From: Neiella marina
GTDB lineage: Bacteria; Pseudomonadota; Gammaproteobacteria; Enterobacterales; Neiellaceae
Reading direction: 5' to 3'
DNA: 64,000 nt
Assembly: GCF_002165625.1 (NCBI RefSeq)
Contig: NZ_NGNS01000003.1
Location: 62,001 to 126,000 of the forward strand
This document shows positions 55,663 to 58,684 of the stretch, one piece after another. Each line of letters begins with the position of its first letter. Within the stretch, counting starts at the first letter, position 1. A program made the position numbers and the translations under genes. The notes beneath the pieces are model-generated. The model was given only the letters and a program-made list of their open reading frames with translations. It made no database searches and had not been told where the DNA came from.

Positions 55663-55797
55663 TTAGCTCTGCCAGTCCCAGCCACCAATCACGCGAACCC
55701 AAGTAAGGGTTGCAACTAGCGTCGGCATTGCCAGTACAGCAACGAACGCCAAGAAGTATTTGAGGTTGTATGGATCTTTGTAGTTTTCGTCAGACAT
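55663..55797 (-). CDS. 44-residue single-pass membrane protein, unknown
   Basis: The frame runs ATG to TAA over 45 codons. A polar N-terminus (MSDENYKDPYNLKYF) precedes one hydrophobic helix (about residues 15-33), followed by a short Trp-rich tail (VRVIGGWDWQS). GGAA lies 8 bp before the ATG. A strong terminator follows at once, and hvfC ends 95 bp upstream, so it could be the last gene of the hvf operon or an independent small gene. I do not recognise the family. The composition is protein-like and the terminator supports a real gene. Confidence 0.65.
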   Translation of the reverse strand: MSDENYKDPYNLKYFLAFVAVLAMPTLVATLTWVRVIGGWDWQS

Positions 55798-55892
55798 ACC
55801 GAATTTCCAGCTAGTAAATAAGAATGCTTATAATTTTGAATGCGCATCCTACCTGAAGACCAACTGTTTGACTAGGGTATTACCACGATGAA

Positions 55893-56660
55893 TTAAGGTT
55901 GCACGCGTTGTTTGACAATACCCCGCTGTCCCAACTCAACCAATATGTCGTTCAAGCCCGACTGCACTTGTTGTCTCGGGACTTGCGGCATCAGAGCCGT
56001 AAGCTGATCGCCCAACTCAGTTACCGAAATACCCGGTCCTTCACTGACAAACTGCAACAAACGAGCCGTTACTGCGTTGATTTCCAAAAACTTTACATCA
56101 TCATCCATATTACGATAGACGACTAAAAAAACGCCTTGTTCAGTGGCTTGCTGTGGTTGAAAATCGGGTCTTATCTGGTGCACAGGGAATTGATATTGCA
56201 ATACCCGCGCAGTGTCTGCGACTGCCAATGGCGTGTCAGCTGAGGGGACGCCTTCGGCAAGCGTTTTATGGAGCTGCGATGGACTACAAAATGCCACCTC
56301 AAACTCAATCCATTCGTAGTGGGCCAGTTCCACCAGAAATGCCGGATCATCGGCTTGTGGTTGTCGCTGTTGGATCAAGTAGTCTAAAAACTCTTCAGCA
56401 ATATCAATAAAATATGGTGACTCTGATCGATGCTGGACCATAAAGTTACTGACTTCACGTTCTAGTTTGTCGTCGCCCCATAGTTTCCAAAGCACCGGAA
56501 ACGCCTCTTCGACAAAGCCTTTAATATTGTTAAACACCAAGCGCCGATAAACTGCTAGGCGCCTGCTCTCAATCCCCTCCGGAGCAGGTTGGCCATCCGG
56601 ATCTCGAATATGAGCGGCAAAGGCCCGTTGCTGTTGCTGATAGTCACCAGAATCAATCAT
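55893..56660 (-). CDS. hvfC: HvfC family RiPP maturation protein (DUF2063)
   Basis: The 255-residue protein belongs to the DUF2063/HvfC group that partners DUF692 enzymes. In MbnBC and related systems the equivalent protein presents the precursor peptide to the MNIO enzyme (known). The N-terminal helical region (QQRAFAAHIRDPDG, RRLAVYRRLVFNNI, FPVLWKLWG) is the recognition-like domain; the C-terminal third contains a winged-helix-like segment. The ATG at 56660 overlaps the hvfB TGA (ATGA), so equal, coupled synthesis is expected. The frame is open further upstream, inside hvfB, which I rejected. Confidence 0.9.
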   Translation of the reverse strand: MIDSGDYQQQQRAFAAHIRDPDGQPAPEGIESRRLAVYRRLVFNNIKGFVEEAFPVLWKLWGDDKLEREVSNFMVQHRSESPYFIDIAEEFLDYLIQQRQPQADDPAFLVELAHYEWIEFEVAFCSPSQLHKTLAEGVPSADTPLAVADTARVLQYQFPVHQIRPDFQPQQATEQGVFLVVYRNMDDDVKFLEINAVTARLLQFVSEGPGISVTELGDQLTALMPQVPRQQVQSGLNDILVELGQRGIVKQRVQP

Positions 56661-57526
56661 GCTGGTTGTTTCCCATATGTCCCTTGCAATGATGGCATCT
56701 CCGACAATGCTTGCTGTTGATACTGTTTGATTTGACTGACTTCGGTGCACAGCTCCGGCAAAGGCGGAATATTGAAATCGCGTTCCAACAGCGTAGGAAA
56801 GACGCCGTGATGAGCATAAGCTTGTTGTAACAATTGCCACACGGGATCAATAACATCTGCGCCGTGGGTATCGACAATAAGATCGACATCCTCATTGTAA
56901 TGGCCGGCTATATGGCCATACACAATGCGCTCTGAAGGAAGGCCTTTCAGATAACTCAAGGCATCGTAGCCATGGTTGATCGAATTGACGTAAATATTGT
57001 TTACATCAAGCAACAGACCGCAATCTGCTTGTTCTAGCACTGCATTGATAAAGGTCAGCTCGTCCAATTGCTGGCCGGGAGCAGCATAATAAGAGACGTT
57101 TTCCAGCACAAACCGACGTTCGGTAATATCCTGAACTTGCTTAATTCTGCTCACCACATGGTTAACCGCTTCTTCGGTAAAAGGAATCGGCATCAAATCG
57201 TACAAGTGACCATCAGCACTACAATAACTCAAATGTTCAGAATATATCTCGATATTGTGTTCATCGAGGAACCACTTGACCTGCTTAACAAAATCAACGT
57301 CTAACGGATCGAGACTGCCAATCGACAACGACAATCCATGGCATATGAAAGGGTATCGCTCGGTCAACGATTTAAATTTTTTGTTGAGCTTGCTACCAAA
57401 TGGAATCCAGTTTTCTGGTGCAACTTCAAAGAAGTCAATGGCCGCAGGCTTGTCTGCAATCACCTCATCAAGCATGCGCCGCTTGAATCCCAAACCAGCT
57501 CCAGTTGGCATATTGAATTTAACCAC
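56657..57526 (-). CDS. hvfB: HvfB family MNIO-type RiPP maturase (DUF692)
   Basis: The 289-residue protein is a DUF692 TIM-barrel of the multinuclear non-heme iron oxidative (MNIO) enzymes. These oxidise Cys of precursor peptides to oxazolone/thioamide or thiooxazole groups. Candidate metal ligands are visible in order: His63, Glu97/His98, Glu142, Asp174 with Asn177, His205 and His209, Asp219 with His221, and Glu248. The start is GTG with AGAGGG 4 bp upstream. It follows hvfA after a hairpin and overlaps hvfC. The product is cytosolic and would act before export of the precursor. Confidence 0.93.
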   Translation of the reverse strand: MVKFNMPTGAGLGFKRRMLDEVIADKPAAIDFFEVAPENWIPFGSKLNKKFKSLTERYPFICHGLSLSIGSLDPLDVDFVKQVKWFLDEHNIEIYSEHLSYCSADGHLYDLMPIPFTEEAVNHVVSRIKQVQDITERRFVLENVSYYAAPGQQLDELTFINAVLEQADCGLLLDVNNIYVNSINHGYDALSYLKGLPSERIVYGHIAGHYNEDVDLIVDTHGADVIDPVWQLLQQAYAHHGVFPTLLERDFNIPPLPELCTEVSQIKQYQQQALSEMPSLQGTYGKQPA

Positions 57527-57558
57527 CGCACCCTCTCTTTTTTTCTGCTGCTTGTAAT

Positions 57559-57587
57559 AATATAGCCAGCATTTCGCTGGCTATATT
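57559..57587 (-). terminator. Hairpin between hvfA and hvfB
   Basis: Twelve-base perfect arms (57559-57570 with 57576-57587) have a 5-nt loop. Only ATTACAAG follows on the minus strand, so it would be a leaky terminator or a 3' stabiliser that favours hvfA mRNA over the maturase genes (inference). Confidence 0.6.
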
Positions 57588-57644
57588 TTATATGCTCCTA
57601 CCCGACACTGAAGAGCTTACATCTGCCAAAGCACTGTTGGCGAT

Positions 57645-58037
57645 TTACTTGCCGCCGCAAGCGCCTTCACCACAGCTGGCTTCTTTTTTGTCTTTGCCGC
57701 CACAAGAACCTTCACCACAGCTGGCTTCTTTCTTGTCTTTACCACCACAAGAACCTTCGCCACAGCTACCTTCTTTCTTGTCTTTACCGCCACAAGAGCC
57801 TTCACCACAGCTGGCTTCTTTCTTGTCTTTACCACCACAAGAACCTTCGCCACAGCTACCTTCTTTCTTGTCCTTACCACCACAAGAACCTTCCGGCGCC
57901 GCCACTTGATAGCCAGCAACCAGATCAGTCAGACCAAATGGTGAAGTTTCAGCCTGTGCTGGCATCATCATGACAGAACCGACAGCAACAGCACCTACGG
58001 CAGCAGCAACAGAAGTTTTGTTTAATTGTTTCATAAC
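57645..58037 (-). CDS. hvfA: HvfA-like RiPP precursor with EGSCG repeats
   Basis: The 130-residue precursor has a signal peptide (residues 1-28, ending AQA), a short spacer (29-47) and a repetitive core (48-130). The core has eleven Cys. Eight are in EGSCG/EGACG motifs and three in EASCG, spaced alternately by GKDKKE or by nothing, in a 15-residue unit. HvfA-type precursors are modified by HvfB/HvfC into copper-binding oxazolone/thioamide peptides that protect the envelope (known for related systems). The ATG at 58037 is chosen for the signal peptide; an upstream ATG at 58082 would destroy it. The reverse strand shows an apparent proline-rich frame that is only an artefact of the repeats. Confidence 0.9.
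   Translation of the reverse strand, partial: VMKQLNKTSVAAAVGAVAVGSVMMMPAQAETSPFGLTDLVAGYQVAAPEGSCGGKDKKEGSCGEGSCGGKDKKEASCGEGSCGGKDKKEGSCGEGSCGGKDKKEASCGEGSCGGKDKKEASCGEGACGGK
57649..57893. repeat. 45-bp tandem repeat within hvfA
   Basis: About five tandem units of 45 bp encode the 15-residue EGSCGGKDKKE(G/A)SCG block. Units differ mainly at third positions and at the Gly/Ala codon, so the repeat is under selection at protein level but could also expand or contract by recombination. Confidence 0.85.
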
Positions 58038-58285: not shown

Positions 58286-58684
58286 ATGGTGACAAAACAA
58301 CATTCAGCGCAACTTGAGCGCTTTAAAAAGACTCTAGAGAGCGAGCATCAACTGCTGATCGCTGACTTAGCGATGGCGTTGACTAGTATCGAAACAGAAA
58401 CGAGCCGTAACGTGCTGGCAAACTTGAAGGCACTATCCTGCGACGAGCTTGTGGAATTGCTGGCCGATGAAGAATGCCCGGAGATTAATCGTACTCTAAA
58501 GCGCCTGCGGGCAGTCGACGCATCCCTGTGTCAAACCGAACTTGGCCTCTATGGATTTTGTGCAGATTGCGAGAAAGCAATCGAGTTAGATATGTTACAA
58601 CGCGACGCGACACAGCAGCGATGCTATGCCTGCGATCAAATCCATCGCCACGTAAAAAAGAACAACAAGCGGATCTTACTCTGA
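58286..58684 (+). CDS. DksA/TraR-type zinc finger protein
   Basis: The 132-residue protein has a helical N-terminal part and a C-terminal four-Cys zinc finger (GFCADCEKAIELDML, then QRCYACDQIH), like DksA-family transcription factors that enter the RNA polymerase secondary channel. The coiled-coil tip DxxDA of DksA is not obvious, so its effect on transcription is uncertain. The ATG at 58286 has GGCGGG nearby; a start at 58217 is open but has no ribosome site. It is divergent from hvfA, so the 248-bp gap holds both promoters. Its stop overlaps the convergent DUF885 stop by 9 bp. Confidence 0.8.
   Translation: MVTKQHSAQLERFKKTLESEHQLLIADLAMALTSIETETSRNVLANLKALSCDELVELLADEECPEINRTLKRLRAVDASLCQTELGLYGFCADCEKAIELDMLQRDATQQRCYACDQIHRHVKKNNKRILL

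Follow-up and report, generated by a model that had tools for sequence, protein, structure and literature searches.

Does an HvfABC-type peptide remain what it is if the lysine of its cysteine motifs has gone? This question is raised by a short operon of Neiella marina, which lies in a window of 64,000 nucleotides, the whole stretch of DNA that was analysed. The first-pass annotation had asked another one: whether the Gly that precedes Ser-Cys in most motifs of the precursor is required for modification, or whether those sites that have Ala instead stay as free thiols. What distinguishes the precursor from its relatives is, however, the residue directly before the cysteine, which the annotation did not mention. 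At this position (-1), Ser or Ala replaces Lys.

The three genes of the operon are encoded on the minus strand. The hvfA-like precursor gene (57645..58034) specifies 129 amino acids. After a gap of 118 bp it is followed by hvfB (56657..57526), the gene of an MNIO peptide maturase of 289 residues if read from a GTG start; an alternative ATG is found at 57511, five codons inside. The stop codon of hvfB overlaps the start codon of hvfC in the sequence ATGA, and hvfC (55893..56660) encodes a DUF2063/RRE partner protein of 255 residues. Gene calls and family profiles thus bear out the order that had been proposed initially, a secreted-type precursor, then an MNIO (DUF692) enzyme, then its DUF2063 partner. 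The HvfABC-type assignment is upheld as well, since all three products pass NCBIfam cut-offs. HvfB scores 443.6 bits with NF003818 (cut-off 360) and 354.5 with Pfam PF05114 (cut-off 25). HvfC reaches 284.7 bits with NF050145 (cut-off 142) and exceeds the cut-offs of PF09836 and PF22106; NGO1945_C is among the Pfam matches of the operon. Solved relatives are PDB 3bww for HvfB (4.5e-73) and PDB 3dee for HvfC (2e-11). The precursor, in which no Pfam family is detected, matches the HvfA repeat domain model NF050137 in five stretches with 35.6 bits (cut-off 19.5). With the narrow HvfA equivalog NF050188 it attains 17.1 bits against a cut-off of 95 and, in this narrow sense, is not an "HvfA". The BufB equivalog NF050167 yields 268.7 bits against 310, and no DUF2282 precursor is seen at the locus; the MbnB equivalog TIGR04159 of methanobactin biosynthesis (MbnABC) yields 35.4 bits against 325. 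The locus is an ordinary three-gene HvfABC-type operon and represents a genuine, minority, Lys-free form of a known family.

A promoter scan at the operon gave no signal above shuffles. The cluster is devoid of a DoxX-like gene, which is common but not obligatory in clusters of the HvfABC type; of the two DoxX genes in the genome, one is located on contig C34 and the other on C23, at a distance of about 22 kb. Nor does the genome reveal a second hvfA by DNA pattern or HvfA domain model. Divergent from hvfA, at 58289-58684 of the plus strand, a DksA/TraR-like zinc-finger protein is encoded, its zinc finger scoring slightly under the Pfam cut-off. A gene of this kind adjoins hvfA in other members of the family, too.

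At its downstream end, the span first assigned to the operon began at 55663 and took in an ORF of 44 amino acids (55663-55797, minus strand) behind hvfC. This ORF encodes a single-TM protein with the motif F/Y-K-D/E-P-F/Y-N and matches no Pfam or NCBIfam family. Its profile has matches in 55 sampled loci, typically directly after hvfC. As a fourth member of the operon it is nevertheless ruled out: in about 120 of the 346 sampled genomes of the order, from 33 genera, it stands upstream of (ybaN-)apt, and it does so also in genomes of another family that have no HvfC above cut-off. Because it persists beside ybaN-apt even where a true HvfC is lacking, it is to be counted among the neighbours of apt. 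It is not an hvf gene but travels with apt in genomes without hvf.

By eye, the N-terminus of the precursor resembles a putative Sec signal: a Lys-rich start and a hydrophobic stretch lead to an AQA-E site (MKQLNK...MMMPAQA). Then follow a short leader, ETSPFGLTDLVAGYQVAAP, and the core with eleven E[GA][SA]CG sites; the translation agrees with the eleven cysteines counted before. The 15-residue repeat is real. Its unit reads EGSCGGKDKKE[GA]SCG, and residue identity at offset 15 amounts to 0.93 within the core, whereas none of 2000 shuffles exceeds 0.34. At the DNA level, TRF finds a 45-bp tandem repeat (57664..57893, minus strand) of 5.1 copies with 90% match and no indels. AlphaFold2, with which the reported beta-helix was sought, yielded no usable model of the precursor (mean pLDDT 38.6). 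The sites succeed one another as EGSCG, EGSCG, EGSCG, EASCG, EGSCG, EGSCG, EGSCG, EASCG, EGSCG, EASCG and EGACG, i.e., seven EGSCG, three EASCG and one EGACG in the last place. The first-pass annotation was right about three EASCG among eleven sites, but position 2, which runs G G G A G G G A G A G, does not simply alternate, and with its EGACG the eleventh site varies at -1, too. Lys is found at -1 in none of the eleven sites, and the literal motif EGKCG does not occur.

The fate of such cysteines has been worked out in relatives. The products of HvfA, FonA and NgoA are now assigned as 5-thiooxazoles (PMC13419390; PMC13097082). In the case of oxazolin, both the authors of an earlier oxazolone/thioamide assignment and others have since revised it (PMC13419390). 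Among the copper ligands initially quoted for systems of this kind, the thiooxazole remains and the oxazolone/thioamide is superseded (PMC13419390; PMC13097082). In the report on fontiphorin (PMC13097082), the chemistry was elucidated with SGEAKCGEGKCGEK. Position 2 of this peptide is naturally Ala, and both of its cysteines were found to be 4 Da lighter and alkylated. At positions 1 and 2, FonBC accepted every non-Pro variant tested apart from Arg at position 1. At position 3, Ala, Arg and Thr were tolerated; Ser is absent from the position-3 variants described in the available text. The need for a Gly before Ser-Cys, formerly treated as an open question, is thus largely answered in a close relative. 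Since FonBC modifies a natural Ala-2 site, free thiols at the EASCG sites of our precursor would be unlikely. Of course, the Ala residues do have a fixed place in the repeat, always the leading motif of two adjacent ones, and this might suggest a mixed product, in which EGSCG sites become thiooxazoles and EASCG sites remain free thiols, with two kinds of copper ligands as the outcome. Apart from the modified Ala-2 sites of fontiphorin, it is the lack of conservation of the pattern that makes such a product highly improbable: in the nearest congener (G002), Gly stands at two of the three sites that have Ala here. Moreover, among 167 precursors Ala-2 is as frequent in first as in second motifs (19 vs 19).

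Our preferred reading, which we hold with good confidence, is a standard copper-sequestering RiPP of the HvfABC type (a "captophorin") with all eleven cysteines modified. As to chemistry, export and copper sequestration, it draws on the characterised relatives. The HvfA precursor would be made with a Sec signal. HvfC would bind the leader and deliver the precursor to HvfB, presumably an iron enzyme, which would oxidise each cysteine with loss of four hydrogens to a copper-binding 5-thiooxazole, no matter whether the site reads EGSCG, EASCG or EGACG. The peptide probably binds copper and, once exported, would sequester an excess of it in the envelope. HvfB keeps the catalytic Asp and the Phe next to it (D250 and F251, corresponding to Asp249-Phe250 of FonB), and RDFN is present in 121 of the 121 HvfB sequences that cover the region. 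Points that count against this reading are the missing DoxX gene, the deviating residue 15 of HvfB (see below) and the absence of Ser from the position-3 variants described for FonBC.

How unusual is a precursor without Lys? The sample comprised 80 named contigs plus whole-genome samples and yielded 167 distinct precursors that have three or more sites; its extraction demanded xxxCG sites and low-Arg composition, and precursors without Cys-Gly are therefore uncounted. Over 172 precursors, i.e., before the three-site filter, Lys occupies -1 in 1250 of 1407 sites, with Ser next (66). Lys is wholly absent in 6 of the 167 precursors, and L193, L195 and L214 are Lys-free examples unrelated to ours. 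The Lys-free motif is a recurrent minor variant and as such mildly unusual. Ala at -2 is found in at least one site of 30 of the 167 precursors. Adjacent to another HvfB (L221), a precursor with AKCGNICGG-type motifs and no EGKCG was seen, possibly a different precursor type.

The two other genomes of the genus (G001 and G002) also lack Lys at -1. Four further genomes of the family encode EGKCG precursors, and in the three whose flanks were compared (G003-G005), hvf occupies the corresponding position upstream of apt. Because EGKCG precursors occupy the same locus with the same neighbours elsewhere in the family, the precursor of N. marina is an orthologue with altered motif residues. As the other family members are of the EGKCG type and none in the genus has Lys, the loss would most simply be placed on the stem of the genus. 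The G002 precursor is built like ours, with 11 Cys; its motifs comprise EGSCG/EGACG pairs plus one EASCG. Its core differs from ours by 24 synonymous and 6 amino-acid-changing codons. All six changes affect position 2 (A/G) or position 3 (S/A); Cys, Glu, Gly-5 and the spacers are untouched. To judge from these codons, positions 2 and 3 are variable within the range of small residues, and the rest of the core is under constraint. The G001 precursor contains seven sites of the form E-x-x-C-G, in which -1 is G, D, N or S, and one Cys is lost; at this locus (L118) the Cys-less motif reads KEEGNGGG. The lost Cys and the Asp and Asn at -1 could reflect relaxed selection in G001, a point against the standard reading. 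Together with the disappearance of Lys from every site, they might even indicate a decaying system, in which motif selection is relaxed throughout the genus and the peptide partly modified or disused. Such a decay is quite unlikely in view of HvfB and HvfC, which are intact in all three species, and of the core, where most changes between the two nearest species are synonymous and none of the 11 Cys has been lost.

The maturase, too, deviates in a residue. Throughout the genus, HvfB has Lys where FonB has Arg15, and the tolerance of FonBC may therefore be transferred to our enzyme only inexactly. The match to FonB relies on residue numbering and motif; in N. marina, Lys15 is followed by R16 and R17. 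Arg15 is near-universal in the sampled HvfB (164 of 171). An HvfB with Lys at this position could prefer small residues at -1. In this case, enzyme and precursor of the genus would have been co-adapted to use Ser/Ala/Gly-Cys instead of Lys-Cys sites, and in the resulting thiooxazole chain, each copper ligand would have a hydroxyl or small side chain next to it, with altered copper affinity or aggregation as a consequence. Lys15 is indeed found in 5 of 22 HvfB with Lys-poor precursors, as opposed to 2 of 149 in the Lys-rich group; if the genus is entered a single time, the figures are 3 of 20 and 2 of 149 (p = 0.012), an association that is post hoc and uncorrected for kinship and, thus, a lead, not a result. 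The Lys-free lineages L193 and L195, however, keep Arg15, and the FonB model places Arg15 near Glu1, not near the -1 residue. Phylum-wide sampling for the association added few HvfB, all of the same class. A co-adapted pair with a novel product is, in our opinion, quite unlikely. The best explanation for Lys-to-Ser/Ala at -1 is a lineage-specific substitution that is tolerated and entails no new chemistry.

The three congeners nevertheless form a natural test set at one orthologous locus: -1 can be Ser, Ala, Gly, Asp or Asn, and -2 Gly, Ala or Ser, while every other member of the family has EGKCG. In a young class of RiPPs, such a set could bear on the role of the conserved Lys, be it enzyme recognition, copper binding or solubility.

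Fontiphorin (FonABC of Fontimonas thermophila; PMC13097082) shares with our locus the order precursor-MNIO-DUF2063, the lack of DoxX, the paired 5-mer motifs and a natural Ala-2 (in EAKCGEGKCG); it differs by Lys at -1, seven sites and Arg15 in FonB, where we find Ser/Ala, eleven sites and Lys15. Oxazolin (HvfABC of Haemophilus influenzae; PMC13419390) has the HvfA, HvfB and HvfC families and the paired motifs in common with it, and its secretion signal would have a counterpart in the putative one of our precursor. It is built, however, from three AEGKCGEGKCG units with six Cys, and its operon contains the DoxX-like HvfX, whereas the operon of N. marina provides eleven Cys and no DoxX. Bufferin 1 (DUF2282, BufABC) likewise depends on an MNIO enzyme with a DUF2063 partner, and 5-thiooxazole chemistry and a link to copper stress are probably common to both; its precursor family has no sequence relation to the precursor discussed here. 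The genome has its own Buf1-type cluster, the only MNIO cluster besides hvf. It is located on another contig (L002; C7:56269-60042) and consists of a DUF2282 (Buf1) precursor, an MNIO enzyme and a DUF2063 partner.
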